From Agrobacterium tumefaciens (lineage in GTDB: Bacteria; Pseudomonadota; Alphaproteobacteria; Rhizobiales; Rhizobiaceae): 64,000 nucleotides of DNA. The position numbers were made by a program, and so were the translations under genes. Under the pieces are notes generated by a model. The model searched no databases. It was not told the origin of the DNA and saw only the letters and a list, made by a program, of their open reading frames with translations. Location of the stretch: positions 2,705,001 to 2,769,000 of the forward strand of contig CP048469.1 in the NCBI GenBank assembly GCA_025559845.1, read 5' to 3'. Numbering within the stretch: the first letter of the stretch is position 1; each line of letters opens with the position of its first letter. Shown piece after piece: positions 25,567 to 51,941 of this stretch.

Positions 25567-25572
25567 CCCGCG

Positions 25573-29033: not shown

Positions 29034-30785
29034 TCAGGGTTGAGATGCAAGACGCGTCACGGTCTCAAGGTAGACCGCGCGGGCTTGAGGCGTGGACAGA
29101 TTATGGTCGGCATCGGGAATGATCGTCACCGACGCATTCGCATAGGCACCCAGCCCCCGTCCATCGGAATCGAAGTAATAACGGAAGTGTTCGAGCCCGT
29201 CGTCATTGTCGCTATAGAGCAGCGTGACGATCGTGCCCTTTGCTCGCAATGTTTCGAAAGCCCGATAAACCGCCCGACCTTCCTCACTTTTGGCTCGAAA
29301 AAGGCGTGCGGTTTTTGTCGAAAGCTTTTTCGCCGTCGCTTTGATGATGTTCAGCACAGCACTTACAACGTCGACATCGCCGCTGAACAGGCGCTTGAAC
29401 GTTGCCCCTTGCAAAAAGCGCTGGCGATATTCGCCGAAAGAGCGCGGACGTTTGTGCAGCGCCTCATCGACGGAGCGGCCTTTCAGCCAATGGAAAACAA
29501 CCGGATTGACCGCAACGACAGCGCGGATGCGATCATCGGAAAGAGCACCGTTAAAGGCCAGATAGGCACCGCTGCAGCGCCCGGCGGCGACGATCGGACC
29601 TGCGATCTGCGCCGACAGAAAATCGAGAGCCGCGACGACATCATCGTTCTGTCTGACGTCGTAAAGCACCTGTTCTGGAACGCCTTCAACCGGTGGACTG
29701 TCGGCGATGTTCGCCGCATCAAACCGCAAGGAAGCAACGCCATTTCTCGCGAGTTCGCGTGCCATCGTTACCGAAAGTCTGCCCCACCCCGCATGCCTGT
29801 CATAGGCGGCCCCCAGAAAAAGGACCGCAGACGATGCGCTGGCGTCAGCGGGTTTGCAGAAGACACCGAACAGACGTCCGTTCTCACCGAACTGGACAGG
29901 TTTTTCGATAAATCCATGTCCTCTCTGACCCGCGTTGGCGAGCTGTTCCCCGGCATATCCGGCACCATCACTCGCTTGCGCCTGCGACAGTGTCCAGTCC
30001 ACGATGCGGCTGACGACACTGTCCGGGATCTTTGACAAGGTCGGACTGGAAACCAGATCGTCATAGCCTGTGAATTCGTCTTCTTGCACGTCGCCAGCAA
30101 GCGTTTGCAAATGGCGTGCGAAATCGGCATCCGTCACGCGCCCTGGCCGCGTCAGAACGAGCAGCCGCTCGGCAGGAACAACAGTCGAGCTGGAAAGATT
30201 GGTCTTCTTGATCCTCTCTGCAACGACGGCAGGCATCTCCATGCTGGCGATGGAACCGGGTGTCGCCAACCGTTGCTCGGGACGAAGGCCCAGACCGTCA
30301 TCGATCATCGACGACCACATCGCAGTTTCACGCAGATAGGCACGCCCTGAAACGACAGGAGCAAGTAGAGCCATTCCGCTTACGCTCGTCTCATCCGCAA
30401 AAGCCTGCATGGCAATCAGGCAGCCAAGCCCCTGAGCAACAATGACAACGCTTGAGACACCCGAAATCTCGCGGAGACAATTGAGAGCAGATCTGGCGTT
30501 GGCGGACCAATCTGCGTCCTTGCCCACATCTTGAGGATCGAGCGCATCACCCGCGCCATGGTAGTCGAACCGCAGGCTCGCAATGCCGACAGCACCAAGC
30601 CGCTCGGCAATGACCCGCTGGAATTTGCGGCTGCAGAGTTCTTCCATACCCCAGGGGCTGACGAAGAGAACCGCAGTATTTTTTTGAGTATCACCCAAGG
30701 CTGGATGAAAAATGCCGACACAACCATCAAAAGAAACTGGCTGCGCGTTCATACCGCCTGTTCGCTCTGAAATATTTATCGTCAT
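29034..30785 (-). CDS. Tandem alpha/beta-hydrolase protein
   Basis: The 583-residue protein has two alpha/beta-hydrolase domains. The first (about residues 20-265) has lost the nucleophile: the GxSxG elbow reads AQGLG. The second (about 300-583) has an elbow GRCSG with Cys404 in place of Ser, plus candidate Asp (LLYSDNDDG) and His (PDADHNLS) partners. A Cys nucleophile occurs in dienelactone hydrolases and some thioesterase-like enzymes. Starts are possible at TTG 30821, ATG 30785 and ATG 30752; none has a strong ribosome site, and 30785 was chosen. It converges on the carrier-protein operon with a 24-bp gap and might release or modify its product. Confidence 0.82.
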   Translation of the reverse strand: MTINISERTGGMNAQPVSFDGCVGIFHPALGDTQKNTAVLFVSPWGMEELCSRKFQRVIAERLGAVGIASLRFDYHGAGDALDPQDVGKDADWSANARSALNCLREISGVSSVVIVAQGLGCLIAMQAFADETSVSGMALLAPVVSGRAYLRETAMWSSMIDDGLGLRPEQRLATPGSIASMEMPAVVAERIKKTNLSSSTVVPAERLLVLTRPGRVTDADFARHLQTLAGDVQEDEFTGYDDLVSSPTLSKIPDSVVSRIVDWTLSQAQASDGAGYAGEQLANAGQRGHGFIEKPVQFGENGRLFGVFCKPADASASSAVLFLGAAYDRHAGWGRLSVTMARELARNGVASLRFDAANIADSPPVEGVPEQVLYDVRQNDDVVAALDFLSAQIAGPIVAAGRCSGAYLAFNGALSDDRIRAVVAVNPVVFHWLKGRSVDEALHKRPRSFGEYRQRFLQGATFKRLFSGDVDVVSAVLNIIKATAKKLSTKTARLFRAKSEEGRAVYRAFETLRAKGTIVTLLYSDNDDGLEHFRYYFDSDGRGLGAYANASVTIIPDADHNLSTPQARAVYLETVTRLASQP

Positions 30786-31046
30786 TGGGCCTGCCACTTT
30801 TTGCGCCGATGCCTGGCTCAACCATACACGTTTACAGATACATCAAAGGTCTTAACACCAGTTCTACGACAACGACATCCTCGAAGGCACAAGCGTCGCT
30901 ATTTTGCTCGAAACCCCCTCGAGATGCTGATAAATAGCAACTTGCATACTATCTGTAGGAGGGACCTTCGTTGTCTGGCAAACCAGTGCCGGAGCGTTGC
31001 GAGAACTAAACGACGGGTTTCACCCGAAAAATCATAGAAGTCTTTT

Positions 31047-33764
31047 ATGGAACAAAGCCTTACGCGTTACATCTGGACGCATACAAAGCGGCATCAGCTC
31101 TTCATTCTGATGATCGTCGCTCTTTCGATGATTCCTTACTTCCTTGCCTTTGACCTTCCCAAGCAAATCGTCAACGGCCCGATTCAGGGTGACGGCTTCG
31201 AAGGCGCGAACGCGACTCAGCCGTTCATGAACATCACCGTCGACTTGCCCTATTGGGGTACGGTCACGCTGTTCGACGGGCTTGAGCTCGACCGCATGTC
31301 AATGCTGATGGCCTTGAGCCTGACGTTTCTCGCGCTCGTCATCGTCAACGGTCTCTTCAAATATTACATCAACACCTACAAGGGTCGGCTCGGCGAACGC
31401 CTGCTGCGTCGTATCCGCTACGAGCTGATCGACAAGATTCTTCGCTTCCCACCCAGCCATTTCAAACGGGTCAAAGGCGCTGAAATCTCGAGCATGGTGA
31501 AGGATGAGGTTGAGCCTTTGGGCGGTTTCACCGGGGATGCCTTCGTCCAGCCAGCCCTGCTGGGCGGACAGGCTCTGTCTGCGCTTTTCTTTATTCTTGT
31601 ACAGAATTTCTGGCTGGGCCTGATTGCCGCTTTCATGGCCGCGATTCAGGTCGGCATTATCCCCAAGATGCGGCGCCGGCTTATCGAACTGGGGCGCCAG
31701 CGTCAGCTCAGCGCTCGTCAACTGGCAGGCCGTATCGGCGAAATGGTCGACGGTATTGGCACCATCCATGCCTATGACACGTCGAACTACGAGAGAGCCG
31801 ACGCATCCCACCGGCTCGGCGATATCTTCAAAATCCGCTACGATCTCTACCAGTGGAAGTTCCTGGTCAAATTCATCAACAACTTCCTGGCACAGCTCAC
31901 GCCGTTCTTCTTTTATGCCTTGGGCGGATACCTCACGCTGAAAGGCAGCCTGGACGTCGGCCAGCTCGTGGCCGTGATCAATGCCTACAAGGAATTGCCG
32001 GGACCATTGAAGGAACTGATCGACTGGGACCAGTCGCGTCAGGATGTTCAGGTCAAATACGAACAGGTGTTCGAGCAGTTCAACGCGCCCAACATGATTG
32101 ATGAAAAGGTGCAGAAACTCTCTGCCGTGTCGACCACTGCACTAACCGCCCCGATCGTCATCACCAACCTGACGCTGGAAGATGACAGCGGCAGCAGACT
32201 GCTTGAGCAGGCCTCGTTGAAAATCGAACCGGGAGAAGTGATCGCGATCGTCGGCGGTTCCGGCGGGGAGGCACTTGCGGACGCCGTTGGACGTACTCTG
32301 TGGCCAGCGAGCGGCAAGATCACCATTGATGATGTCGACATCCTGGAGTTGCCGGAAGCCGTCACCGGCCGCCGGATTTCCTATGTCTCGTCGGACAGCT
32401 ATTTCTTCCACGCCAGCCTCGCGGACAACCTGCTCTATGGCCTGAAGCATTCGTTGATCGCCGACAAGGTGTATCAGGGTGCGGAACTGGAACACCGAAA
32501 GTGGGAAATCCGCGAAGCCAAGATGGCTGGCAATCCGTCGGTCGATATCAACGGGAACTGGATCGACTACGCGTCCAGTCCCGCCGGTGACGACAAGCCG
32601 GAAAATCTCTCAAAGGCAGTACTGGCGGTTCTCGATGCGGTGGATCTGTCGCAGGATGTCCTGGAGTTCGCTTTGCGCTCGTCCATCGACCCGCTGCATG
32701 ACCTGAATCTGGCGGCACGTATCGTGGAACTTCGCCACATCCTGCGCTCCGAACTTGAAAAGGAAAATCTGAGCGGTCTTATCGCGCCTTTCGAGCTCAA
32801 TAGTTACAACAACGAAGCAACTGTGGGCGAGAATCTGCTGTTCGGTACAATGCGGGATTCGTCGCAGACGATCCGGACAGTCATTGAGAGCGATTACTTC
32901 CGGACGCTGATGCGTGAAACCGGCCTTGTCGAGACATTGTTCGACATGGGTCACACGATTGCTGAAAACATTGTCGAAATCTTCTCCGACCTGCCGGGCG
33001 ACCACCCGTTCTTCCAGCAGCTCACCTTTATGACGCCGGATGATCTGCCAATCTACCAGCAGATGTTGCAGCGCCTTCAGGGCAAACATTTCGCCGACGC
33101 CAATGAAAGTGAAAAGCGTGCAATGTTGCGCTTGAGCTTCTTCTATGTCGAACCGAGACAACGTTTCGGTCTGTTGACCCAGGAGATCATGGACCGGATC
33201 ATCGAGGTCAGGCACATGTTCCATGCCAACCTGCCCGATGAACTTAAAAACATCATCGAGATCTACGATCCGTCCAAATACATGAGCGCCACCAGCCTCA
33301 TGGACAATATCCTGCTCGGCAAGATCAGTTACCGATATTCGGATGCATCGAGGCGCATCACCAAGATCGTCGCCGATGTCATGCGCAAACGTGGCGTCTA
33401 CGAACGCGTTCTGGCCGTTGGTCTGGATTTCAACCTTGGTTCCGGTGGCAAAAGACTTGGGCCCCTGCAACGCCAGAAGCTTAATCTTGCTCGGGCGCTG
33501 ATGCGCAAATCAGACTACTACATCTTCAATCGCCCGCTTCCAGGTCTCGATCATCGACTGCAGGAGGAAATTGTTGAGAGAGTCATCACATTCCTGAAAC
33601 AGAACAACAATAACCCGTCCATCGTCTGGGTTCTGTCTAACGCTACACTCTCACGAATGTTCGATCGCGTTATCGTTGTACACCAGGGTTCTATAACTGC
33701 TGATGGAAGTTACGAGACTCTTGCGCAAGAAAACGGTACATTCAAGGAAATGGTCGCAACATAA
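31047..33764 (+). CDS. ABC-exporter-like protein with degenerate ATPase domain
   Basis: The 905-residue protein has an N-terminal exporter-type membrane domain (hydrophobic segments near residues 16-36, 85-105, 168-205 and 272-297; cytoplasmic phrase GEMVDGIGTIHAYDTSNYER), then a nucleotide-binding-like domain interrupted by an insertion of about 300 residues. Every ATPase motif is altered: Walker A is VGGSGGEA (no Lys, residues 402-409), the Q-loop Gln is Ser449, the signature is LGPLQ (804-808), Walker B is YYIFNRP (Asp to Asn828, Glu to Arg829), and the H-loop His is Asn865. ATP hydrolysis is therefore unlikely. A cyclic-nucleotide-binding protein follows after about 45 bp. It may be a receptor, scaffold or channel; function unknown. 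Confidence 0.9.
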   Translation: MEQSLTRYIWTHTKRHQLFILMIVALSMIPYFLAFDLPKQIVNGPIQGDGFEGANATQPFMNITVDLPYWGTVTLFDGLELDRMSMLMALSLTFLALVIVNGLFKYYINTYKGRLGERLLRRIRYELIDKILRFPPSHFKRVKGAEISSMVKDEVEPLGGFTGDAFVQPALLGGQALSALFFILVQNFWLGLIAAFMAAIQVGIIPKMRRRLIELGRQRQLSARQLAGRIGEMVDGIGTIHAYDTSNYERADASHRLGDIFKIRYDLYQWKFLVKFINNFLAQLTPFFFYALGGYLTLKGSLDVGQLVAVINAYKELPGPLKELIDWDQSRQDVQVKYEQVFEQFNAPNMIDEKVQKLSAVSTTALTAPIVITNLTLEDDSGSRLLEQASLKIEPGEVIAIVGGSGGEALADAVGRTLWPASGKITIDDVDILELPEAVTGRRISYVSSDSYFFHASLADNLLYGLKHSLIADKVYQGAELEHRKWEIREAKMAGNPSVDINGNWIDYASSPAGDDKPENLSKAVLAVLDAVDLSQDVLEFALRSSIDPLHDLNLAARIVELRHILRSELEKENLSGLIAPFELNSYNNEATVGENLLFGTMRDSSQTIRTVIESDYFRTLMRETGLVETLFDMGHTIAENIVEIFSDLPGDHPFFQQLTFMTPDDLPIYQQMLQRLQGKHFADANESEKRAMLRLSFFYVEPRQRFGLLTQEIMDRIIEVRHMFHANLPDELKNIIEIYDPSKYMSATSLMDNILLGKISYRYSDASRRITKIVADVMRKRGVYERVLAVGLDFNLGSGGKRLGPLQRQKLNLARALMRKSDYYIFNRPLPGLDHRLQEEIVERVITFLKQNNNNPSIVWVLSNATLSRMFDRVIVVHQGSITADGSYETLAQENGTFKEMVAT

Positions 33765-33808
33765 AGTTAAGAGACGTGACCGAGGTGGAACGAAATCAGG
33801 ATAAAGCG

Positions 33809-34264
33809 ATGCTGTTTAAAGACGAAATACAAATGCTGAAACGAGTGCCATTCTTTTCGGAGATGGAACCGTCAAAGCTTAAACTTCTGGCTTTTGCATC
33901 GGATCGCGTATCCTACCACAGTGGTGATGTTCTATTCCGGCAGGGTGATGTGGGCGACGCCGCCTATGTGCTTCTGACCGGTAAAGTCGATGTGCTCATC
34001 GATTCTCCTGCCGGCCCCATCAAGCTGACGGAAATGACCGGGAACGCAATCGTTGGCGAAATCGCCATCCTCTGTGACAGCGTCAGAACGGCGACGGTAC
34101 GGGCGTCGACCAATGTCGAAGCTCTGCGTATCGGCAAGGAACAGTTTTTCAAGCTGATGTCGGACTTCCCCGATATCACCATCAAGGTCATGCGCGTCCT
34201 TGCCGAGCGGCTTACGCAAACCACGGCGGAACTGAGCAAAGCGCGCACCATGGCGAAAACATAA
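33809..34264 (+). CDS. Cyclic-nucleotide-binding domain protein
   Basis: The 151-residue protein is essentially one cNMP-binding domain (residues about 10-130) without a DNA-binding domain. The phosphate-binding cassette is intact (VGEIAILCDSVRTATVRA: Gly-Glu and Arg-Thr-Ala), so cAMP or cGMP binding is plausible. The ATG has AGGA 8 bp upstream and matches the usual family start; a GTG at 33776 is also open and would add 11 residues. It directly follows the degenerate ABC protein gene and lies 1.3 kb upstream of an adenylate cyclase gene, so it probably reports cAMP to the ABC-like partner. Confidence 0.9.
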   Translation: MLFKDEIQMLKRVPFFSEMEPSKLKLLAFASDRVSYHSGDVLFRQGDVGDAAYVLLTGKVDVLIDSPAGPIKLTEMTGNAIVGEIAILCDSVRTATVRASTNVEALRIGKEQFFKLMSDFPDITIKVMRVLAERLTQTTAELSKARTMAKT

Positions 34265-34356
34265 GTGGCAATTCCTTGCTACCGTCACGCGCGATCTTGA
34301 AAAAACAGACGTCGCGCCATTGCAATATACATGAAATGCTGGATGAATAGTGAGAC

Positions 34357-34377
34357 GTCTGCTGTGGGGCAGCAGAC
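34357..34377 (+). other. Hairpin between cNMP-binding and MBL genes
   Basis: GTCTGCTG and CAGCAGAC pair exactly around a five-base loop. No T-run follows, so it is not a standard terminator; it could attenuate or protect transcript ends between the two genes. Confidence 0.45.
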
Positions 34378-34449
34378 ATAGGTAATGCGTTTACAACGGG
34401 CCTCCAGGGAGGAAAGCTTGCAAGGCTCCGTTGTGGTTTGGGGTGTATC

Positions 34450-35310
34450 ATGGTGTTCGGTTCCGACGTAGCGGGTCGGGAAAATGATGAGAATTTTCGG
34501 ATAAAGATCTGGGGAGCGCGAGGAACACTCCCCGTTTCAGGTGAGGATTTCCGGAAATATGGAGGCAATACGATCTGCATCGAGGTTCGATGCGGAAATC
34601 ATGTTCTTTTGTTCGATGCAGGGTCCGGACTTCTGCCAGCCGGCCTGGCGCTGCGTGCCGAAGGCGTGACGGACGTCAACCTGTTCTTCTCACACTGCCA
34701 TTACGACCACATTGTCGGCTTCCCCTATTTCAAGCCCTTCTACAACAGCGCCAATGATGTGAAGATCTGGTCCGGTCATCTGGCCGGCACGAAAACCACG
34801 CGCGAAATGCTCAAGGAATTCATGAGCCCACCGTGGTTTCCCGTTCCGCTGGAAATCTGTTGCGCCAGAATTGCGACCAGGGACTTTCTCCCTAGCGATA
34901 CCCTGGACGTGCGCCCTGGCCTCTCCATTCGCACCGGAATGCTCAATCATCCAGGCAATGCGGTTGGCTACCGTATCGATTGGGCAGGTAAATCGCTTGC
35001 GATCATAACGGACACCGAACATGAGCCGGGCACCTTTGACGAGACGGTGCTGGACCTCATCAAGGACGTCGACCTCTTCCTGTATGACGCCATGTTCACG
35101 GACGAAGAGATGGGCCTCTATAAAGGCTATGGCCATTCCTCATGGCAGCAGGCAATCCGCCTCGCCAAGCTTGCCAATGCAAAGAGCGTCGGGTTCATCC
35201 ATCATTCGCCAACACGCAGCGACGAAGAACTCGATGACATCGAGAAACAGGCGAAAGAGCAGTTCGACGGTGCATTTGCGGCGATGGATCATCAGATCAT
35301 CGAACTCTGA
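34450..35310 (+). CDS. Metallo-beta-lactamase-fold hydrolase (possible phosphodiesterase)
   Basis: The 286-residue protein opens with the phrase IKIWGARGTLPVSG and has the MBL metal motif SHCHYDH (His82, His84, Asp86, His87). Further candidate ligands are the His in MLNHPGNAVGYRI, the Asp in AIITDTEH and the His pair in GFIHHSP. The layout resembles the RNase Z/phosphodiesterase side of the superfamily rather than lactamases. The ATG at 34450 has a GGGG site upstream; a TTG at 34438 is less likely. It sits between a cNMP-binding protein gene and an adenylate cyclase gene, so cyclic-nucleotide hydrolysis is an attractive but unproven role. Confidence 0.87.
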   Translation: MVFGSDVAGRENDENFRIKIWGARGTLPVSGEDFRKYGGNTICIEVRCGNHVLLFDAGSGLLPAGLALRAEGVTDVNLFFSHCHYDHIVGFPYFKPFYNSANDVKIWSGHLAGTKTTREMLKEFMSPPWFPVPLEICCARIATRDFLPSDTLDVRPGLSIRTGMLNHPGNAVGYRIDWAGKSLAIITDTEHEPGTFDETVLDLIKDVDLFLYDAMFTDEEMGLYKGYGHSSWQQAIRLAKLANAKSVGFIHHSPTRSDEELDDIEKQAKEQFDGAFAAMDHQIIEL

Positions 35311-35546
35311 CGAAAAATTTCGCTCCATCGACCTGGCCGTCTCCATCCTTCGGAACAATCCGTGATACGAACACGTACAAGTGACAATAAGTGTGTGTTC
35401 CCTTCCACGATGTTGCCGCAAGCCATTGCGCAATAACGCAGAAGAACAGTTCGTCGCGATGACGGGTGCTTACGCAATGAATGATGGGGGAACCGCGAGA
35501 TTGGAACAGGCAACGTCACACCGACAGACCGCATAAAGGGATTTCC

Positions 35547-37241
35547 ATGATCCGCTTCGTGCCGGAAACCGCGCTCAGACATGCCCGGATTGGCTCTGGC
35601 CTTGTCATGTTCGCGTTTGTCTGCAGCCATCTTTCAAATCACGCTCTTGCGCTCGTATCACTGGAAACCGCAGAAAAAGGGCGCAAATGGTTCAGCCTGC
35701 TCTGGCTGAATCCAGCAAGTAGCATTCTGCTTTACGGCGCGCTTCTCGTTCATTTGGTGCTCGTCCTTCGCTCCATTTATCTGCGCCGGACCTTGCGGAT
35801 GCCTCTGCGTGAAGCATTGCAGACTGGTCTTGGTTTGCTAATTCCCTTCCTCATCATCGGTCATGCCGTAAACATCCGTTTTTCCAGAATACTTTACGGC
35901 GTCGATCTCGGTTATCCAGACATCATTCGCAGACTGTGGGTCGAAAATCCCGGTGCTGGTGCATGGCAGAGTTTTGCGCTGCTGGTGATTTGGACACATG
36001 GCTGCATCGGCGTATTTTTCTGGCTGCGTTATCGGGACTGGTACCCACGATTTTCAGGTTTCTTCCTGACCTTTGCTGTCATGCTCCCGATCCTCGCCCT
36101 CTTGGGTTTTGCTGATGCCGGGAGACTACTCGAAGAGGAGAGTGCCAGGCTGAGCCTGCCGCCGGGGCTTGCCGAATACAGCCAGCATCCGGAATATCAA
36201 CGCTCGCCAAGCCAGATGGAAAATCACATCAAATCCATCACGACAGGTGCACAGGCGCTCTTCGCATCAGCGGTTGCAGTTGTGATTGCAATGCGTGGCC
36301 TGCGCGCGTGGCGGCAGCGAACCGGCGCTATCGAAATCCGTTATGAGCATGGCGCGCAGGTGCGTGTACCTGCTGGACTGAGCATTCTGGAAGCAAGCCG
36401 GATTGGCGGTATTCCGCACTACTCCGTTTGCGGAGGAAAAGGCCGTTGCTCGACCTGTCGGGTCAGAATTCTCGATAGCAAGGGACCTTTGCCGCCTGTT
36501 GGCGATATCGAAAAGAACACGTTACGGCGCATTCATGCTGATTCCGATGTGCGGCTTGGCTGTCAGTTGCGCCCGACCGACAATCTCAGTGTCGCGCTCC
36601 TTGTATCTCACAATCAGCAAAGTGATCTCCCACCCGATACGCAAACGACACGGCCAGGCCGGGAAGAGGAGATCGCGGTTCTGTTTTGCGACATCCGCAA
36701 TTTCACCTCGCTATCGGAAGCGAAGCTCCCTTACGACGTCGTCTTTCTGCTGAACCGCTATTTCACGATCGTCGGGCAGGCGGTCGAACAGGCAGGTGGA
36801 CGCCTGGATAAATTCATCGGCGATGGGGCCATGGCGCTTTTTGGTGTCGAGGGAAAAACCGAAGATGCCTGCCGCAATGCGATGAAAGCAGCCGCCACGA
36901 TTTTACGGGAACTGTCGCTTCTGAACGAGGGATTGGAAAGACAGTTTTCCGTAAGGCTGGAAGTGGTCATCGGCATTCATTCAGGCCCGACCATTGTTGG
37001 CGTTATGGGCTATGGTTCAGCAAAAACCCTCACCGCCATTGGCGACACCGTCAATGTCGCAAGTCGGCTGGAATCGAAAGCCAAGGAGCTTGGTGTGGCA
37101 ATTGTGGTCTCTGAACCGGCCATTATTCAGGCCGGTCAGGACATCGCCGATCTGCGCAACGAAAAGATCGCTATCCGTGGCAGAAACTCGCAACTGAAGG
37201 TCTTCCTCTTGTCAAAGGAAGAGAGCGAGCGGTTCCTGTAA
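35547..37241 (+). CDS. Membrane adenylate cyclase with [2Fe-2S] ferredoxin domain
   Basis: The 564-residue protein has three parts. Residues 12-250 hold about six membrane segments with histidines inside or at them (His28, His32, His69, His106, His151), like a diheme cytochrome b or SdhC-type anchor. Residues 262-355 form a ferredoxin domain with Cys295, Cys301, Cys304 and Cys339 (CGGKGRCSTC). Residues 375-564 are a class III cyclase: metal Asp382 (FCDIRNFT) and Asp426, adenine-selecting Lys422 and Asp500, catalytic Asn503 and Arg507 (DTVNVASRLE). AAAGGGA precedes the ATG. It should make cAMP under redox or quinone control, as reported for S. meliloti CyaC. Confidence 0.92.
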   Translation: MIRFVPETALRHARIGSGLVMFAFVCSHLSNHALALVSLETAEKGRKWFSLLWLNPASSILLYGALLVHLVLVLRSIYLRRTLRMPLREALQTGLGLLIPFLIIGHAVNIRFSRILYGVDLGYPDIIRRLWVENPGAGAWQSFALLVIWTHGCIGVFFWLRYRDWYPRFSGFFLTFAVMLPILALLGFADAGRLLEEESARLSLPPGLAEYSQHPEYQRSPSQMENHIKSITTGAQALFASAVAVVIAMRGLRAWRQRTGAIEIRYEHGAQVRVPAGLSILEASRIGGIPHYSVCGGKGRCSTCRVRILDSKGPLPPVGDIEKNTLRRIHADSDVRLGCQLRPTDNLSVALLVSHNQQSDLPPDTQTTRPGREEEIAVLFCDIRNFTSLSEAKLPYDVVFLLNRYFTIVGQAVEQAGGRLDKFIGDGAMALFGVEGKTEDACRNAMKAAATILRELSLLNEGLERQFSVRLEVVIGIHSGPTIVGVMGYGSAKTLTAIGDTVNVASRLESKAKELGVAIVVSEPAIIQAGQDIADLRNEKIAIRGRNSQLKVFLLSKEESERFL

Positions 37242-37255
37242 AACCAACGCACCTA

Positions 37256-37738
37256 TCAGATCTTGCGGTAGAGAAAATAACGGTCGGTTGGCACGCTGTC
37301 CGGCACCGGAAGCGGTTCAAGGGCCGGATGCTCGAGTGGCAGGCCACTGATGGCGATGCCGCCCGCACCCAGCAGGCCAGCCGCAAGCTGGGGAAGCCAG
37401 GTCAAGGTTATCGCGTCTTTTTCCGGATATCCCGTACCAATATCGGCATGTACCAGCGCCGCTTCCGAGCCGATATAGGCGGGAGCGGTTTCCGATATCT
37501 CGCCAATCACCATGTCCTCCGCCACCGGAACGGACGAAGCATGGGCGCCCATCGCCCTGTCGAAGGCAATGATACGACGCTCCGGGAAAAGTTCGCGCAG
37601 GTGATTGAACGTCCGCCCATTGCCAAGACCAACCTCCATGATCGCCCCGTTGCGTGGCAATTCGAGGTCGTCACGCACGTGGTTGAGAATATCCCGCTGT
37701 GCGGTCAAACGGCGAATGAAACTGTCGAGTCTGCTCAT
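37256..37738 (-). CDS. Class I SAM-dependent methyltransferase (small)
   Basis: The 160-residue protein has SAM motif I AIMEVGLGNGRTFNHLRELF and the following acidic strand IIAFDRAMGAH. The fold is short for a class I methyltransferase (usually over 200 residues), and no substrate domain is seen, so either the core is minimal or the substrate is small. It lies 34 bp after the nucleotide-sugar dehydrogenase gene on the same strand and is probably cotranscribed with it. Methylation of a sugar or lipid is possible; the target is unknown. It converges on the cyclase gene with a 14-bp gap. Confidence 0.8.
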   Translation of the reverse strand: MSRLDSFIRRLTAQRDILNHVRDDLELPRNGAIMEVGLGNGRTFNHLRELFPERRIIAFDRAMGAHASSVPVAEDMVIGEISETAPAYIGSEAALVHADIGTGYPEKDAITLTWLPQLAAGLLGAGGIAISGLPLEHPALEPLPVPDSVPTDRYFLYRKI

Positions 37739-37772
37739 GCGATATCCAATGGAACGAGAAATGGGAGGACGA

Positions 37773-39113
37773 TCAGGCCTTTAGGATATGTTTTGCGGCG
37801 ATGCCCCGCCTTGCAAAGACGTTTCGGGTATCGATGATCAGTGGCGACCACTCCACGAGCGTCGCGTAGTCCACGTCGTCGTGATCGGTCGCGATAAGCA
37901 CGGCATCGAACGCACCGATGACCTCCTTGCGCCACGCGACAGACTGCATGCCCATCAAGGCGCTGTATTCGCGCGTTTTCGGGATTTCAGCCACGTAGGG
38001 ATCGTAATAGAACGGTTCGCCGCCACGCTCATGGATCAGCTCGATCAGCTTCAGAGACGGGCTTTCGCGAATGTCAGGCACGTTCTTCTTGTAGGCCAGT
38101 CCAAGCACCAGCACTTTGGAACGGCTCAATGCCTTGCCGGCATGAATATCCAGCGCCTCCGCAACGCGACCGATCACATGCCGGGGCATGCCGGTGTTGA
38201 TTTCGCCCGCCAGTTCGATGAAACGCGTCGGCAATTCATACTCACGCGATTTCCAGGTGAGGTAGAAAGGATCGATCGGAATACAGTGACCGCCGAGACC
38301 GGGGCCTGGATAAAAAGGCATATAACCGAAAGGTTTGGTCTTGGCCGCATCGATCACCTCCCAGATGTCGATGCCCATTGCCTCGTAGACCACCTTCAGT
38401 TCGTTGACGAGCGCGATGTTGACCGCTCGGAAAACGTTCTCGGTAATTTTCACCGCTTCAGCCGTCGCCGTCGTTGACACGGGAACAACTTTTTTCACGA
38501 CCGCACCGTAGAATGCCGTCATCAGCGTTCCCGCCGCTTCACCATCGCCGGCAACGACCTTCGGGATCGTCGATGTTTCAAAATCCCGATTGCCGGGGTC
38601 CTCGCGTTCCGGCGAAAAACCTATGAAGAAGTCGACGCCGGCCATCAGCCCGGATGTCTCAAGTATGGTTTTCACCACTCCATCGGTCGTACCGGGATAA
38701 GTGGTTGATTCCAGCACGATAAGCTGTCCCACACGAAGATGTGCAGCGATGTCACGGCAGGTTTTTTCGACGTAGGAGAGATCCGGTTCACGATATTTCG
38801 TCAGCGGCGTCGGCACACAGATGGCGATCACATCGCAATCAGCCAATTTCGAAAAATCGGATGTTGCAACAAACCCATCGTCTCGGCGCACCTCTTCCAG
38901 AACATCGTCCGAGACCGCCTCGATGTAGCTTCGACCCGCGTCGATCGCGATGATTTTACCGGGGTCGATATCGAACCCGGTGACCTTGTAGCCCGCCTTG
39001 GCGATTGTCATCGCCAGCGGCAGGCCGACATAGCCAAGTCCGATCACGCCTGCTCTGGCGCTCTTGGTTTCAATGGTGGTGAGCAAATTCTGGAAGGAGA
39101 CCGAGGAAGTCAA
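37773..39113 (-). CDS. UDP-sugar 6-dehydrogenase, WbpA/TviB type
   Basis: The 446-residue NAD-dependent enzyme oxidises C6 of a UDP-sugar to a uronic acid for surface polysaccharide. The Rossmann start is AGVIGLGYVGLPLAMTIAKA. The active-site Cys lies in GLGGHCIPIDPFYLTWK, the form typical of UDP-N-acetylhexosamine dehydrogenases (WbpA) rather than UDP-glucose dehydrogenase (GGSCFPKD). The C-terminal UDP-binding domain follows (LVLGLAYKKNVPDIRESPS). The only in-frame start is a TTG with GGAG about 12 bp upstream. Glycosyltransferase genes lie divergently. Confidence 0.92.
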   Translation of the reverse strand: MTSSVSFQNLLTTIETKSARAGVIGLGYVGLPLAMTIAKAGYKVTGFDIDPGKIIAIDAGRSYIEAVSDDVLEEVRRDDGFVATSDFSKLADCDVIAICVPTPLTKYREPDLSYVEKTCRDIAAHLRVGQLIVLESTTYPGTTDGVVKTILETSGLMAGVDFFIGFSPEREDPGNRDFETSTIPKVVAGDGEAAGTLMTAFYGAVVKKVVPVSTTATAEAVKITENVFRAVNIALVNELKVVYEAMGIDIWEVIDAAKTKPFGYMPFYPGPGLGGHCIPIDPFYLTWKSREYELPTRFIELAGEINTGMPRHVIGRVAEALDIHAGKALSRSKVLVLGLAYKKNVPDIRESPSLKLIELIHERGGEPFYYDPYVAEIPKTREYSALMGMQSVAWRKEVIGAFDAVLIATDHDDVDYATLVEWSPLIIDTRNVFARRGIAAKHILKA

Positions 39114-39234: not shown

Positions 39235-40338
39235 ATGCAGATGAAAATCGCTTTTTATTCGCCGCTGAAATCTCCCAATCACCCTGTCCCTTCCGGAGAC
39301 CGGTTGATGGCGCGCCTTTTGATGAAAGCAATGGCGATGGGCGGCCATGAGGTTTATGTCGTTTCGGAGTTGCGGAGCTTCAACAAGCACCCCGATGCCC
39401 TCAGTCGAGCGGAGATAAATGCTGCGGCAGAACGTGAAGTGGCACGGATTTCCGGGGTTTGGAAAAGCGAAGGCAAACCCGATCTCTGGTTTTGCTATCA
39501 TCCCTATTACAAGGCGCCCGATCTCTTGGGACCAACGCTTTGCAGGGAATTCGATGTTGCATACGTCACGGCCGAAGCGTCTTATGCTCCCAAGCGCAAT
39601 GCGATGGGATGGCAGGACATACAGGATGGACTTCTGTCCGCATTGGCAGATGCTGCCGTCAACATCTGCTTTACCGCACGGGATCAGGACGGGCTCTTGC
39701 GGGCCTCACCGGTCGTTCACACAGCAATGTTACCTCCCTTCATCGAAACCGGCGCCTTCCGTGATAACGAGCCAACGCCCGTAGAGGGAAAACTGATTGC
39801 AGTCGCAATGATGCGAGCGGGTGACAAGCTCAGCAGCTATCAAGCGCTGGCCAATGCGCTGGTGATGTTGCCGAACGATCTGGAATGGACGCTCGACATT
39901 GTGGGAGACGGACCCGAACGCGAACAGGTGGAGGCCATGTTCCGACCCGTCGACGCTCGGCAGCTCGTATGGCACGGCGAAAAACCCTCCACCGAAATAC
40001 CCAACCTTCTCTCCAAGGCATCGATCTATGTCTGGCCGGGACATGGTGAGGCTTACGGGCTTGCCTATCTGGAGGCGCAAGCAGCAGGTCTTCCGGTTAT
40101 CGCGGAGCAGACGGCCGGGGTGCCGGAGGTGGTAAAATCTGGAATGACCGGACGATTGACGCGCGCAGGCGATACGGGCGCCTACGCAAAAGCGATCGAG
40201 TCCCTGCTGACCGATGAGACAAGTCGTCGGATTTTGGCCGACGGCGCTCGCCGCTTTGTCATGGAGGAACGGTCGCTGGAGAAAGCTGCCGAACGATTAA
40301 ACGACATTCTTTCGCAAACGAAGGCGCAGAAACCATGA
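39235..40338 (+). CDS. Glycosyltransferase family 4-like protein
   Basis: The 367-residue GT-B-fold enzyme starts with MKIAFYSPLKSPNHPVPSGD after a short lead; an ATG at 39241 is an equally good start, and neither has a strong ribosome site. The C-terminal retaining-GT motif is clear (PGHGEAYGLAYLEAQAAGLP, an E-x7-E pattern), and DIVGDGPEREQVEAMF marks the sugar-nucleotide domain. It transfers a sugar to an unknown acceptor, probably in surface glycan assembly. It overlaps the deacetylase gene by ATGA. Confidence 0.9.
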   Translation: MQMKIAFYSPLKSPNHPVPSGDRLMARLLMKAMAMGGHEVYVVSELRSFNKHPDALSRAEINAAAEREVARISGVWKSEGKPDLWFCYHPYYKAPDLLGPTLCREFDVAYVTAEASYAPKRNAMGWQDIQDGLLSALADAAVNICFTARDQDGLLRASPVVHTAMLPPFIETGAFRDNEPTPVEGKLIAVAMMRAGDKLSSYQALANALVMLPNDLEWTLDIVGDGPEREQVEAMFRPVDARQLVWHGEKPSTEIPNLLSKASIYVWPGHGEAYGLAYLEAQAAGLPVIAEQTAGVPEVVKSGMTGRLTRAGDTGAYAKAIESLLTDETSRRILADGARRFVMEERSLEKAAERLNDILSQTKAQKP

Positions 40339-41078
40339 GTGTGGAAAAGCTTGTTGCTGCCTTGGACGCATGCGCGAAGCGTGGTGTCACAGCCGATCTC
40401 TGGCTGAGAGATGACGACGCGGTCGAACCCACGGCAAAACTCGATCGATTGCTCTGTCTCTCCGAAGACTTTTCGGTGCCAATGACCCTTGCCGTCATTC
40501 CGGTTGCCACGTCGGAGAAGTTGTCGACCTATCTCGATGGCGCACCTCTTGCAACTGTCGCCGTCCATGGCTGGTCCCATACCAACTATGCGACGAAGGA
40601 GGAAAAGAAGCAGGAGTTGGGGCGCCATCGGGAAACGGCCGTCGTTGTCGCGGAGCTACAATCCGGACTGCGAAAACTACGCGATCTGCATGGTGGACGT
40701 TTCACGCCGATGCTCGTCCCACCTTGGAACCGCATCGATGCCGGTGTCGTCAGCGAACTACCGCAAATCGGCTATCGTGCCCTTTCCGTGTTTGGCCCGG
40801 AAAAGGCGACAGAACCGCCATCTCAGAATACCCATGTCGATGTCATGGACTGGCATGGCACGCGCGGCGGACGCGACCACGACACTCTGTTCGCGGAAAC
40901 AGCCACTCGCATAACAACAACAATGGAAGATGGTGGGACGACAGGTATCCTCACCCATCATCTGGTGCACGACGAAAACGTCTGGCGATTTTTGACGATG
41001 CTCCTGGAAGTCACGACAGATCATCCGGCATGCCGCTGGCGTTCGTCCGCCGATCTTATCGAAACGCCTTCACCATGA
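40335..41078 (+). CDS. Polysaccharide deacetylase-family protein
   Basis: The 247-residue protein has a NodB-like fold: the catalytic and metal Asp pair in LRDDDAVEPT and the metal motif HGWSHTNY (H-x3-H). Later elements are PPWNRIDAGVV and ILTHHLVHDENVW. It has no signal peptide, so it acts inside the cell, perhaps on a lipid-linked or nucleotide-linked amino sugar. Translation is coupled to the GT4 gene. The stop overlaps the end of the convergent GT32-like gene by 9 bp. Confidence 0.87.
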   Translation: MSVEKLVAALDACAKRGVTADLWLRDDDAVEPTAKLDRLLCLSEDFSVPMTLAVIPVATSEKLSTYLDGAPLATVAVHGWSHTNYATKEEKKQELGRHRETAVVVAELQSGLRKLRDLHGGRFTPMLVPPWNRIDAGVVSELPQIGYRALSVFGPEKATEPPSQNTHVDVMDWHGTRGGRDHDTLFAETATRITTTMEDGGTTGILTHHLVHDENVWRFLTMLLEVTTDHPACRWRSSADLIETPSP

Positions 41079-42032: not shown

Positions 42033-42244
42033 TTAACCCTGTCCCGAAACACTGACTCACATATCGCCAAACCGAAGCCGCCAGGCAAGTCGCCGATTTA
42101 AGAAGCCGGCTTCGAATTCGCAGCATATACAGGTGTTTCAAGGGCATAGACAGACACAAAGCCCTACGATAACGTGACGTTAGAGCCTTGGATGAACTTT
42201 GTCGCAAGGCAATACTCAAGAAGACGACAGGGAACCTTTTTGGC

Positions 42245-46038: not shown

Positions 46039-46039
46039 T

Positions 46040-48222: not shown

Positions 48223-48294
48223 AATGGAACACGCCTTGATAGACTGCCCTTCCGCCATCGCCTTTTCCGTGAAAGGCACCAAGAGGTGTGGCCC

Positions 48295-49503
48295 ATGACC
48301 TCCCGCCTGAATGATGCGCGCATCCTGATGTACAGCCACGACTCTTTCGGGCTCGGACACCTTAGACGGTGTCGGACGATCGCCCATGCGTTGGTGGAGG
48401 ATTATCGCGGCCTCAACGTTCTTATCATTTCGGGCGCAACGATCGCCGGCGCCTTCGACTATCGCGCTCGCGTCGATTTTGTAAAAATCCCGAGCGTCAT
48501 CAAGCTGCGCAACGGCGAATACACATCCATGGATCGACACATCGATCTTCAGGAAACCCTGAAGATGCGCCGTTCGATCATCTACCACACAGCCGAAAGC
48601 TTTAAGCCGGATATCTTCATCGTCGACAAGGAGCCGATGGGCCTTCGTGGCGAAGTCGAAGAGACACTGGCCTATCTGAAGCAGCAGGGAACCAAGCTCG
48701 TCATCGGTTTGCGTGACGTCATGGATGCGCCGCAGCTTCTTGAGGCCGAATGGAAACGCAATGACGTGATGAACAAGATCAGTCATTTCTACGATCACGT
48801 CTGGGTTTACGGACCACCGGATTTCCACGACCCGCTGACTGGGCTGGACGTTCCACAGAGCGTGCGCAGCAAGATGGATTTCGTCGGTTTTCTGCAACGC
48901 TCCAGAACACAAGCGGAAACCGTCTCGCATAAACCGGATGGCGATTATCTTCTCATCACGACAGGCGGCGGCGGTGATGGCAGCGAACTGATCGACGACG
49001 TGATCAATGCCTATCATCACGACAAGGATCTGACCCACAAGGCACTCGTGGTGCTCGGTCCCTATATGCCGGTTGATCAGCGCCAGCGTTTCGTCAGCCT
49101 CGTCGCAGACATTCCGCATATTGAGATCATCGAATTCGACAACCGAATGGAAGACCTGGTTGCAGGTGCTCAGGCCGTCGTATCGATGGGGGGCTACAAC
49201 ACAGTCTGCGAAATCTTGTCGTTCGACAAGCCGGCTCTGGTCGTGCCGAGAACCATCCCGCGCGAGGAACAGTTGATCCGTGCCAGCCGCGCGTCGGAAC
49301 TCGGGCTTTTCGACATGCTTTTGCCGGAAGACGCCGAAAATCCGGGAAAGATGGCTGCGGCTCTCAAAGCGTTGCCCTATCGTAATCCGCCTTCCGTCAA
49401 TTCGCAGAACCTCAAGCTCGACGGCCTCGAAAACATTTCGAAGCGCATTGCCGAATGGCTACACCCGGAAAGCGAAAAGACGCCGGCTGTCCAGACGGCA
49501 TGA
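48295..49503 (+). CDS. MurG-like glycosyltransferase (first of trio)
   Basis: The 402-residue GT-B-fold protein has an N-terminal motif LMYSHDSFGLGHLRRC (GxGHxxR) and the C-terminal UDP-sugar region VVSMGGYNTVCEILSFDKPALVVPR (read in two parts), as in MurG and UGT-type enzymes. The ATG at 48295 has AAGAGGTG upstream; a GTG at 48286 is less likely. It is too divergent to be MurG itself and lies in a run of three GT genes. It probably assembles a cell-surface or storage glycan; donor and acceptor are unknown. Confidence 0.88.
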   Translation: MTSRLNDARILMYSHDSFGLGHLRRCRTIAHALVEDYRGLNVLIISGATIAGAFDYRARVDFVKIPSVIKLRNGEYTSMDRHIDLQETLKMRRSIIYHTAESFKPDIFIVDKEPMGLRGEVEETLAYLKQQGTKLVIGLRDVMDAPQLLEAEWKRNDVMNKISHFYDHVWVYGPPDFHDPLTGLDVPQSVRSKMDFVGFLQRSRTQAETVSHKPDGDYLLITTGGGGDGSELIDDVINAYHHDKDLTHKALVVLGPYMPVDQRQRFVSLVADIPHIEIIEFDNRMEDLVAGAQAVVSMGGYNTVCEILSFDKPALVVPRTIPREEQLIRASRASELGLFDMLLPEDAENPGKMAAALKALPYRNPPSVNSQNLKLDGLENISKRIAEWLHPESEKTPAVQTA

Positions 49504-49545
49504 CCGACCGGTTCGATGCGTCGACCTGAAAGAGACACGATCAAC

Positions 49546-50793
49546 GTGACAAAAAAAGAAAAAATCGTGGTGCTGCTCAAGGGTTACCCGCGGCTGTCCG
49601 AGACCTTTATTGCGCAGGAACTTCTGGGGCTGGAAAGGGCCGGGCTTGAGCTGGAACTGGTGTCCATGCGCCGCCCGACCGACAAGAAGCGTCATCCGGT
49701 GCATGATGAAATCCGCGCACCTGTCACCTACCTGCCTGAATATCTGCACGAGGAACCCTTGCGCGTTCTCAAAGCGCTCTGGGCATGCCGAAAAAAAGTC
49801 GGCTTCGGCAAAGCCCTTCGCCAGTTCTGGCAGGACTTGCGCCACGATGTCAGTCGCAACCGCTTCCGGCGTTTCGGCCAAGCGGCGGTTCTGGCTCATG
49901 AGTGGCCCGTCGACGCTGGATGGCTGCATGTGCACTTCATCCATACTCCAGCTTCGGTTGCCGCTTATACCCATCTGATCACCGGCACCCCGTGGACGAT
50001 TTCCGCCCATGCCAAGGATATCTGGACATCCTCCGATCGCGATCTGTCCACCAAACTGAACAGCGCCCGCTGGGCCGTTACGTGTACCGCCAGCGGCTTC
50101 CAGCACCTTCTTGGGCTGTCCGGGAAAAAACAGAATGTGCATCTGAGCTATCACGGATTGGATCTGACCCGCTTCCCGCATTTCGATGGTCCGCGTCCGA
50201 TGAGAGACGGCTCGGACGCAAACGATCCGGTGCGTGTTCTAAGCGTTGGCCGCGCAGTCAAGAAAAAGGGGATCGATGTGCTTTTGCGAGCGCTCTCCTC
50301 CCTGCCATCAGAGATCCACTGGCATTTCACCCATATCGGTGGCGGTGATGAGCTTGCGTCGCTCAAACAGCTTGCCGATGAACTCGGCGTCGCCGATCGC
50401 ATCGTCTGGACAGGCTCAATGGATCAGAAACAGGTGCTGGAGAACTACCGCCAGGCAGATCTGTTCGCGCTTGCCTGCCGCATCACCAGCGATGGCGACC
50501 GTGACGGGCTTCCCAATGTTCTGGTGGAAGCAGCCAGCCAGTCGCTGACGTGCATTTCCACCAATATATCCGGCATTCCGGAGTTTTTTGTTGATGGGGA
50601 AAATGGTCTGCTGACAGAACCTGAGAATCCCGTGGCCTTCGCCAATGCTCTGCAACGGGTGATCACCGATCCACAATTGCGCATCAGCCTTGGTGAGGCA
50701 GCGGAACACCGGGTTCGCACGGCCTTCGATCACAGAACCAGCATTGCGGACCTCAAGGCACTCTTTGAAAGCGAATGGGAGAAGGCATCGTGA
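49546..50793 (+). CDS. Glycosyltransferase family 4 protein (second of trio)
   Basis: The 415-residue GT-B enzyme opens VVLLKGYPRLSETFIAQELL, a start common in exopolysaccharide GT4 proteins. The C-terminal motif is DGLPNVLVEAASQSLTCIST followed by GIPEFFVDGENGLL. I chose the GTG at 49546, where the family homology begins; an ATG at 49516 would add 10 residues. Its stop overlaps the start of the third GT gene (GTGA), so translation is coupled. Confidence 0.88.
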   Translation: MTKKEKIVVLLKGYPRLSETFIAQELLGLERAGLELELVSMRRPTDKKRHPVHDEIRAPVTYLPEYLHEEPLRVLKALWACRKKVGFGKALRQFWQDLRHDVSRNRFRRFGQAAVLAHEWPVDAGWLHVHFIHTPASVAAYTHLITGTPWTISAHAKDIWTSSDRDLSTKLNSARWAVTCTASGFQHLLGLSGKKQNVHLSYHGLDLTRFPHFDGPRPMRDGSDANDPVRVLSVGRAVKKKGIDVLLRALSSLPSEIHWHFTHIGGGDELASLKQLADELGVADRIVWTGSMDQKQVLENYRQADLFALACRITSDGDRDGLPNVLVEAASQSLTCISTNISGIPEFFVDGENGLLTEPENPVAFANALQRVITDPQLRISLGEAAEHRVRTAFDHRTSIADLKALFESEWEKAS

Positions 50794-51941
50794 CGACGAC
50801 TGAACGGCCTCCCCGCGTCTTTTTTTATGTCCAGCATCTGCTCGGCATCGGTCATATCGCCCGCGCCAGCCGGGTTGCCAACGCGCTCCAGGCGGATGGT
50901 TTCGATGTGACGCTTGTAACAGGGGGCATGCCTGTTCCCGGTTTTCCAGGTGACGGAATACGCCATGTCGAGCTACCACCGATCGCCGTGAGCGACGGTA
51001 GTTTTTCCGGCCTTGTCGATGCGACGGGAAAGCCAGTGGACGACGCTTTCAAAAAAGACCGGACCGACATGCTGATCGGCGCCTATCACGGCGCCAAACC
51101 GGATATCGTCATCATCGAGGCTTTTCCGTTCGGGCGCAGGCAGGTTCGCTTCGAACTTCTGCCGCTGCTGGACGAGATCGAGGACAGCGAGCCCAGACCA
51201 CTGGTCATGGCCTCGCTTCGCGACATCCTGCAGGAACGTTCGAAACCGGGGCGGGACGAAGAAACCGTCTCATTGGTGAAGAAACATTTCGATGCGGTAC
51301 TCGTGCACGGCGATCCGAATTTCGTGCGGCTTGAAGATACCTTCCCTCTCGCTGAACAGATCAGCCACCGCGTTGTCTACACCGGCCTTGTCGCTCCGCT
51401 CGCGCCACCACCGCCGTCGGAAAAATTCGATATCATCGTGTCTGCGGGTGGCGGTGCTGTCGGTGCAGCACTCATTCAGGCAGCCCTAGAGGCAGCGCCA
51501 AAAGTCAAAGGGATTGAAAACTGGTGCCTGATCGCTGGCCCCAACATGCCCCAGGCTGATTTCGAGGCAATTACCGCAAAGGCCGGGGACAACATCTCCG
51601 TTTTTCGATTCCGCAAAGACTTTGCAAGTCTGCTTACCGGCGCGCGACTTTCCATTTCCCAGGCAGGCTACAACACGGTCTGCGATGTCCTTCAGGCAAA
51701 ATGCCGTTCCTTGCTCATTCCCTTCTCGGCAAGTGGCGAGACGGAACAGAGTGCCCGCGCGGAACGTCTGCAAAAACTCGGGCTCGCGCATGTACTGGAA
51801 GAAAAAGACATTACGGCACAGTCGATGGCCGATGCCATAGAAAGAGCTTTGGCGCTGCCTGCTCCGGACCTCGTCTCCCTCGATCTGGATGGCGCATCGG
51901 GAACAGCTAGGGCGTTGCGCCATATCTATGACGAGCGTTGA
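50790..51941 (+). CDS. MurG-like glycosyltransferase (third of trio)
   Basis: The 383-residue protein shows the same GxGHxxR start as the first GT of the run (YVQHLLGIGHIARASRVANA) and a C-terminal SQAGYNTVCDVLQAKCRSLL region. The first and third genes therefore look like distant paralogues. The GTG at 50790 overlaps the previous stop and has an excellent GGAGAAGG site 5 bp upstream. Its last 35 bp overlap the convergent cutC gene. Confidence 0.88.
   Translation: MTTTERPPRVFFYVQHLLGIGHIARASRVANALQADGFDVTLVTGGMPVPGFPGDGIRHVELPPIAVSDGSFSGLVDATGKPVDDAFKKDRTDMLIGAYHGAKPDIVIIEAFPFGRRQVRFELLPLLDEIEDSEPRPLVMASLRDILQERSKPGRDEETVSLVKKHFDAVLVHGDPNFVRLEDTFPLAEQISHRVVYTGLVAPLAPPPPSEKFDIIVSAGGGAVGAALIQAALEAAPKVKGIENWCLIAGPNMPQADFEAITAKAGDNISVFRFRKDFASLLTGARLSISQAGYNTVCDVLQAKCRSLLIPFSASGETEQSARAERLQKLGLAHVLEEKDITAQSMADAIERALALPAPDLVSLDLDGASGTARALRHIYDER

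Follow-up and report, generated by a model that had tools for sequence, protein, structure and literature searches.

A conserved pair of ABC-exporter-like and cyclic nucleotide-binding proteins, probably tied to a glycan pathway, with recurrent cyclase and metallohydrolase neighbours in Agrobacterium tumefaciens and its relatives

Results

The 64,000-nucleotide stretch of the Agrobacterium tumefaciens genome analysed here (contig CP048469.1, positions 2,705,001 to 2,769,000; hereafter the window) carries at positions 31047-37241 four consecutive open reading frames on the forward strand, in which Pfam identifies, in order, ABC_membrane with a partial ABC_tran, cNMP_binding, Lactamase_B_2, and Fer2 with Guanylate_cyc. 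They encode an ATP-binding cassette (ABC) exporter-like protein, a cyclic nucleotide monophosphate-binding (cNMP) protein, a metallo-β-lactamase (MBL)-fold hydrolase and a class III cyclase, as a first-pass annotation made from the sequence had named them. Their features, with transmembrane domain abbreviated to TMD and nucleotide-binding domain to NBD, are as follows.

31047..33764, + strand: ABC-exporter-like protein, 905 residues, TMD PF00664 and an NBD without canonical ATPase site (Pfam, AlphaFold2, Foldseek)
32241..32288, + strand: Walker A remnant, residues 399-414, IAIVGGSGGEALADAV (alignment)
32376..32441, + strand: Q-loop/helical unit, putative copy 1, residues 444-465 (hhalign)
32787..32846, + strand: Q-loop/helical unit, putative copy 2, residues 581-600, ATVGENLLFG (hhalign)
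33249..33320, + strand: Q-loop/helical unit, putative copy 3, residues 735-758, SLMDNILLG (hhalign)
33432..33557, + strand: signature and Walker B remnant, residues 796-837 (alignment)
33809..34264, + strand: single-domain cNMP-binding protein, 151 residues (Pfam; an alternative GTG start at 33776 would give 162 residues)
34450..35310, + strand: MBL-fold metallohydrolase PF12706, motif SHCHYDH, candidate atypical class-II phosphodiesterase (TTG start at 34438 possible)
35547..37241, + strand: class III adenylate cyclase with 2Fe-2S domain and hydrophobic N-terminal region, CyaC-like (ATG start at 35481 possible)
36351..36578, + strand: Fer2 (2Fe-2S) domain of the cyclase (Pfam)
36660..37208, + strand: class III catalytic domain of the cyclase (Pfam)

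The stop codon of the ABC gene lies 44 bases from the ATG of the cNMP gene at 33809, against gaps of about 170-240 bases before the MBL and cyclase genes, so that only the first pair looks tightly coupled. Loci for comparison were chosen by their ABC match alone, with no regard to neighbouring genes, and comprise the best 80 of 394 named contigs, 40 of the 58 class-level genomes with a match and 20 of the 70 such family-level genomes (140 loci, corresponding to 139 places, one genome being counted twice as L126 and L195); 12 extra loci were read besides these sets. The class sample consists of 190 alphaproteobacterial genomes, 58 of which carry the ABC gene, and the family sample of 151 Rhizobiaceae genomes, 70 of which do, while in a phylum-level sample the ABC match (E ≤ 1e-60) was found in 21 of 299 genomes, every one inside Alphaproteobacteria. 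The window protein is 100% identical in Rhizobium sp. RM, after which Agrobacterium and Rhizobium records follow at 89-90%. Genome G042 carries two ABC matches, the neighbourhood read as L174 being that of the weaker.

In all 140 loci the ABC gene is followed on its own strand by a cNMP match, which is either no more than 800 bases downstream or part of the same frame, and in a further sample of 66 genomes outside these loci the best cNMP match (E ≤ 1e-15) adjoins the ABC gene in 62. The two are found in one open frame in nine loci from seven genomes (L171, L173, L175, L194, L202, L203, L204, L209 and L213); TMD, NBD and cNMP domain were all recognized by Pfam in the three of these nine that were submitted, and a quick tree built from 80 ABC proteins, in which 17 of 77 inner branches are drawn open, accounts for the fused state by a single change. 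Such natural fusions argue that the ABC and cNMP proteins act together. Judged from gene order and fusion, the two genes form a near-obligate core, a pairing that we consider well supported, and their products very likely form a physical complex. A literature search for the ABC-cNMP pair found no description of it. Genome G154 has no separate cNMP match at E ≤ 1e-15, yet carries three fused ABC-cNMP paralogues (L202, L203 and L204), and the phosphate cassettes of their relatives L175 and L194 are divergent. Open frames around the ABC or cNMP gene are overlong in L172, L207 and L208 (1386, 1095 and 1219 residues), which may reflect extensions or chance GC-rich frames.

The full order ABC, cNMP, MBL, cyclase recurs in four loci of the same family (L180, L181, L185 and L189) and in L210, from another family of the order, while L211 presents ABC, cNMP and then a Fer2 cyclase. 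The conserved linkage that the first-pass annotation had proposed as a check is thus present, most firmly for the pair. Its view of a self-contained module of four genes stands in part: that arrangement does occur, as one version of a locus whose core is two genes and to which the MBL and cyclase genes are recurrent additions.

The ABC-like protein retains an exporter-type TMD (PF00664, 85 bits against a cut-off of 28), and the description of it as degenerate holds well beyond the window. All four ATPase motifs are lost in the window protein, with GGSGGEAL in place of Walker A, LGPLQ for LSGGQ, IFNRP for Walker B and SNAT at the H-loop, and none of 70 aligned relatives has a full ATPase site. 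In the Walker A consensus GxxGxGK[ST] the lysine is kept in 24 of the 70 and the next residue is glutamate or aspartate in 56, serine in two and threonine in one, the serine or threonine never together with the lysine; LSGGQ occurs in none, the Walker B aspartate in five, the catalytic glutamate in 24 and the H-loop histidine in 14. From these lost motifs the NBD is predicted no longer to hydrolyse ATP. The Q-loop and signature stand about 350 residues apart, the usual spacing being about 60. Comparison by hhalign of the Q-loop/helical copies, using 68 sequences with the two most divergent omitted, gave 98% for copies 2 and 3 (E 9e-14), 94% for 1 and 3 and 85% for 1 and 2, with four control pairs at or below 0.4%; the rest of the insertion, without the Q-loop motifs, scored in the middle range (52% and 66%), and these values are not counted as support. 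The alignments thus indicate that the Q-loop/helical segment is triplicated, with two extra copies between Q-loop and signature. An AlphaFold2 model of only fair quality (mean pLDDT 69.6) retrieved ABC exporters such as TmrAB and MsbA in Foldseek, the top match being one TmrAB subunit. The TMD and overall fold are therefore common to MsbA/TmrAB-type exporters and the window protein, but the latter is without Walker A, Walker B, signature and H-loop, and has the apparently triplicated unit.

The cNMP protein (PF00027, 71 bits) has an intact phosphate cassette, VGEIAILCDSVRTATV, as the first-pass annotation had noted; across the 140 loci the cassette arginine is invariant and the glutamate is present in 135, with aspartate in the other five. 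PF00027 is its sole Pfam domain, and no CRP/FNR-type C-terminal DNA-binding domain is present in its 151 residues. The best solved relatives are one Toxoplasma protein, then cGMP-dependent and then cAMP-dependent kinase domains, a mixture of both types by which cyclic AMP (cAMP) and cyclic GMP (cGMP) cannot be separated here; the protein probably has cAMP as its ligand. TIGR03896 (cyc_nuc_ocin, bacteriocin-type transport-associated) is likewise cNMP-type and by name linked to transport, but the match is weak, at 46.7 bits far under the 161-bit cut-off. In HetC from Nostoc PCC 7120 (PMC10986499) an ABC exporter is, as here, joined to a cNMP domain, one that the available text of that paper describes as needed for function. 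However, the cNMP domain of HetC is N-terminal, beside a C39 peptidase, whereas here it is a separate gene or C-terminal, and the ATPase glutamate is essential in HetC, whereas here the ATPase motifs are lost. A Pfam scan of the window proteins gave no C39 peptidase domain, a trait of HetC-like peptidase-containing ABC transporters.

Around the four genes lies a cluster of glycosyltransferase genes which the first-pass annotation had missed. GT28-type glycosyltransferase and ABC genes occur together in 55 of the 190 class genomes, ABC alone in three, GT28 alone in three and neither in 129 (phi 0.93); of the 55 genomes with both, 16 have the two genes more than 10 kb apart or on separate contigs, and the co-occurrence is thus more than an effect of linkage. 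For the methyltransferase PF12692 the corresponding figures are 43, 15, 2 and 130 (phi 0.79), and for the control family PF07364 they are 44, 14, 24 and 108 (phi 0.55), the latter replacing the MlrC protein at E ≤ 1e-60, which was too rare (3 of 190). Part of any association is thus background, but not as much as 0.93; since the genomes are related, Fisher p values overstate independence and the control phi is the fairer yardstick. In 78 of 80 named and 31 of 40 class loci the ABC gene has homologues of the window glycosyltransferases no more than 8 kb away, and PF12692 is near the pair in 20 of the 40 class loci at a median distance of 518 bases. The PF12692 gene is doubled near the cNMP gene in L155, L161, G184 and G086. 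The neighbouring genes concerned are listed below.

37256..37738, - strand: PF12692 S-adenosylmethionine-dependent methyltransferase (Pfam)
37773..39113, - strand: nucleotide sugar dehydrogenase, putatively Atu2582 by gene order (Pfam)
39235..40338, + strand: GT4 glycosyltransferase, putatively Atu2583 by gene order
40335..41078, + strand: polysaccharide-deacetylase-like protein, below the Pfam cut-off
48286..49503, + strand: GT28-type glycosyltransferase, putatively Atu2590 by gene order
49516..50793, + strand: GT4 glycosyltransferase of the same cluster
50775..51941, + strand: GT28-type glycosyltransferase, putatively Atu2592 by gene order

As far as the available text of PMC9790009 goes, transposon sequencing (Tn-seq) in Agrobacterium found that insertions in Atu2577, a 'putative ABC exporter', and in Atu2582, Atu2583, Atu2590 and Atu2592 raise the fitness of a yejABEF mutant, and the cluster is ascribed to an uncharacterised glycan that is required for phenazine tolerance and tied to cell-wall recycling. 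Counting from the window ABC gene, the nucleotide sugar dehydrogenase is at +5, the GT4 enzyme at +6 and the GT28 enzymes at +13 and +15; the window gene is very probably Atu2577, matched by gene order and annotation class and not by sequence. The text available describes Atu2577 as a putative ABC exporter only, with no mention there of a lost ATPase or a cNMP partner. That the ABC-cNMP pair belongs to the glycosyltransferase pathway is well supported, and that it acts in the glycan pathway is likely. The output of the locus, for which the first-pass annotation offered a scaffold at the membrane, needs revision accordingly: the linkage it proposed is real, and the glycan pathway is the likely output.

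The third protein carries the MBL-fold label correctly (PF12706, 63 bits), its metal ligands being invariant in 25 aligned rows. In the 151 family genomes MBL (E ≤ 1e-45) and ABC genes occur together in 58, ABC alone in 12, MBL alone in one and neither in 80 (phi 0.83), and in 52 of the 58 the MBL gene lies within 5 kb of the ABC gene, the other six being at 16-20 kb or on a separate contig. The top Foldseek match of the MBL model by E-value is YhfI (6kns, TMt 0.82). YhfI, Rv1339 and the CpdA of Corynebacterium glutamicum are grouped as atypical class-II phosphodiesterases in the available text of PMC9293780, and the window protein has in common with them PF12706, the motif [T/S]HxHxDH and this best fold match. 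On the other side, it scores 52 of 400 bits with NF041851 (phosphodiesterase), far under the cut-off, and 84 of 293 with TIGR02651 (RNase Z), neither cut-off being reached. Cleavage of cAMP by this protein is a tentative assignment, with chances somewhat short of even.

The window cyclase presents the class III lysine, threonine, asparagine and arginine set at the spacing of CyaC and a Fer2 motif, CGGKGRCSTC, invariant in 11 of 11 rows, in keeping with its label as a redox-type class III cyclase, and its N-terminal region has several histidines invariant in 11 aligned rows. CyaC from Sinorhizobium meliloti (SMc01818, PMC10463352) is, in the portion of that paper available, likewise a class III cyclase behind a membrane-type region, with a six-helix anchor that binds two hemes and a response to quinones, and reportedly works together with Clr and CycR; the likeness is one of residues and description, not of a sequence alignment with CyaC. 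The cyaC gene is preceded by a TetR gene (CycR), whereas the neighbours here are the ABC, cNMP and MBL genes, and the same portion makes no mention of a 2Fe-2S domain in CyaC, which the window cyclase has.

Up to 5 kb from the ABC gene, a reading frame for a class III cyclase is present in 13 of 20 family loci, 18 of 80 named loci, 4 of 40 class loci and 2 of the 12 extra ones. For the family set, 282 PF00211 matches in about 95 Mb give an expectation of 0.58 near-cyclase loci in 20 genomes (19 genera), so that near cyclases stand about 20-fold above expectation, the counts coming from our own profile and the expectation from Pfam PF00211 matches. The window's own genome (6.3 Mb) has six PF00211 matches. 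All 13 neighbours submitted to Pfam contain the cyclase domain, in make-ups with Fer2, with DUF5939 or without a named second domain, and on the ABC tree a near cyclase appears or disappears at least 12 times, the tree labels deriving from an earlier profile (3 of 40 class loci, against 4 of 40 with the final one; named and family counts are equal). As the cyclase is near in so few named and class loci and PF12692 stands instead in half of the class loci, the four-gene set is one version only. Two different class III cyclases follow ABC, cNMP and MBL in tandem in L180 and L181, and DUF5939-cyclase proteins adjoin the pair at L190:3938-5521 and L192:10409-11884.

Elsewhere in the window, positions 24658-29009 (+ strand) hold consecutive genes for a protein with a class II tRNA-synthetase core match (PF00587, weak, E 0.0018, below cut-off), a DUF1839 protein and a GH2 mannosidase-like protein. 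At 29034-30821 (- strand) a 595-residue protein has two alpha/beta-hydrolase regions which match two separate exosortase-A-associated hydrolase models, and this double-hydrolase gene is close to the ABC gene in just 8 of the 80 named loci. A peptide-type ABC importer (double ATPase, family 5 solute-binding protein and two permeases) lies within the glycan cluster at 42188-48222, and 59 of the 80 named loci have a homologue of its solute-binding protein no more than 8 kb from the ABC gene. Rfam gave no match over 30500-38000. Matches to the consensus of Clr-type (cAMP-receptor) sites number 8 in the window against 10 expected and are thus not above expectation, and no transcriptional link is claimed; promoter-like sites are likewise not above shuffled sequence (3 against 4.3), terminator-like sites are somewhat above it (12 against 7.0), and neither kind is used as evidence.

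Discussion

Judged by comparison of genes and genomes, the locus has a two-gene core, fused in places and bound to a glycan pathway, beside which a cyclase and an MBL hydrolase recur within the family. The first-pass annotation as a whole is partly supported. We propose that the ABC-like and cNMP proteins constitute one membrane complex, an exporter-shaped dimer, whose NBD, without ATP hydrolysis, would act as a platform for the cNMP protein to read. This complex would serve the glycan pathway of the linked glycosyltransferases, most likely at a flipping or export step, so that a glycan would be the compound transported. The nearby cyclase, here of CyaC-like redox type, would make cAMP, which on the cNMP protein would change the conformation of the complex and open or close the glycan step, and the MBL hydrolase would reset the complex by cleaving cAMP. 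We give this mechanism, in which cAMP is made, is read at a glycan-serving pseudo-ABC exporter and is then cleared, a probability of roughly 0.45; gating of the glycan step by cAMP is by itself a proposal about as open to doubt as to belief, leaning slightly towards doubt. A redox-type cyclase beside a glycan tied to tolerance of redox-active phenazines would fit such a mechanism.

Several observations weigh against this proposal. The residue after the cassette arginine is threonine in 131 of the 140 loci, which fits cGMP-type sites too, and of the first nine solved relatives all but one are cGMP-dependent kinases. The MBL gene has no match in 12 of the 70 ABC-bearing family genomes, RNase Z and PhnP-type folds come close behind YhfI, and the RNase Z models outscore the phosphodiesterase model, with no NCBIfam cut-off reached. 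No more than 18 of 80 named loci and 4 of 40 class loci have a cyclase within 5 kb, and the joint appearance of MBL and near cyclase on independent branches is not significant (median p 0.06). As regards the glycan, three genomes have the ABC gene and no GT28 match (G044, G071 and G169), the GT28 co-occurrence was measured at class level only, and no more than 9 of 20 family loci and 3 of the 12 extra ones have a glycosyltransferase homologue within 8 kb. Even the pair has exceptions, its genes being on different contigs in G087 and G157, while G108 has the ABC gene and no cNMP match in the 10 kb read. No study of cAMP binding or of contact with the ABC protein, whether biochemical or genetic, came to light in the literature searched, and the cNMP, MBL and cyclase genes are absent from the hits that the available text of PMC9790009 names. 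Lastly, in the assay of the authors of PMC10986499, from what is available of it, the cNMP domain of HetC bound guanosine tetraphosphate (ppGpp) and not cAMP, a precedent for ppGpp as the alternative ligand of an exporter-borne cNMP domain.

The pair might, alternatively, transport nothing and instead control the glycosyltransferases, and hence synthesis, as a receptor or scaffold in the membrane. This is the most durable of the rival explanations, though we regard it as rather unlikely: a full ATPase site is absent from 70 of 70 relatives, the insertion with its repeats is large, and co-occurrence is with enzymes, namely GT28 and PF12692, but the exporter-family TMD has been kept. The resemblance of the A. 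tumefaciens ABC gene to the glycosyltransferase genes in Tn-seq, as far as the source goes, fits a pathway step and a controlling role alike.

Slightly less probable is that the signal is cGMP, ppGpp or another ligand, with the cyclase and MBL genes as unrelated passengers of the neighbourhood. The cGMP-kinase-like cassette with its threonine, the ppGpp precedent of HetC and the closeness of the MBL protein to RNase Z would all agree with this. It accounts poorly, however, for the roughly 20-fold excess of cyclase neighbours of several make-ups in the family set, for the retention of MBL with ABC in six of 58 genomes at 16-20 kb or a contig apart, and for window cyclase residues that match those of the adenylate cyclase CyaC.

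Heterodimeric exporters often contain a degenerate NBD, and the best hit in Foldseek is a subunit of heterodimeric TmrAB, so the ABC protein could be one half of such an exporter, with an active partner half encoded elsewhere and the cNMP protein tuning an ATP-driven machine. The degenerate half of heterodimers usually retains its own Walker A, though, whereas the window protein has lost all four motifs, and inspection by eye of the 30 largest neighbour clusters revealed no exporter-type ABC half, an unlinked partner not being searched for; we consider this explanation improbable. Ordinary co-inheritance within a large polysaccharide island, with no joint action, is very improbable, for although the control PF07364 also correlates (phi 0.55), so that some association reflects shared ancestry and genome size, phi values of 0.93 and 0.83 are far above it, fusions exist, and the order and strand of the pair are constant.

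Returning to the cAMP-operated complex, its widest form is speculative and on balance doubtful: a class-wide exporter-shaped family that has given up ATP and become a pseudo-ABC transporter or flippase, operated by a cyclic nucleotide receptor, for one conserved alphaproteobacterial glycan, to which the Rhizobiaceae would have added redox-sensing or other cyclases and a phosphodiesterase of their own. Such a family would raise the question of how an ABC-shaped protein works without ATP. From the available text of PMC9790009, the pair would also be an entry point to the uncharacterised glycan tied to phenazine tolerance and cell-wall recycling in Agrobacterium.

Most of what is known of cAMP in bacteria concerns the switching of transcription factors. 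If this widest form is true, phenazine or respiratory stress would act through cAMP directly on the export of an envelope glycan, without transcription, and a conserved receptor on an exporter-like protein would provide a direct, non-transcriptional output in the 58 of 190 sampled alphaproteobacterial genomes that carry it.

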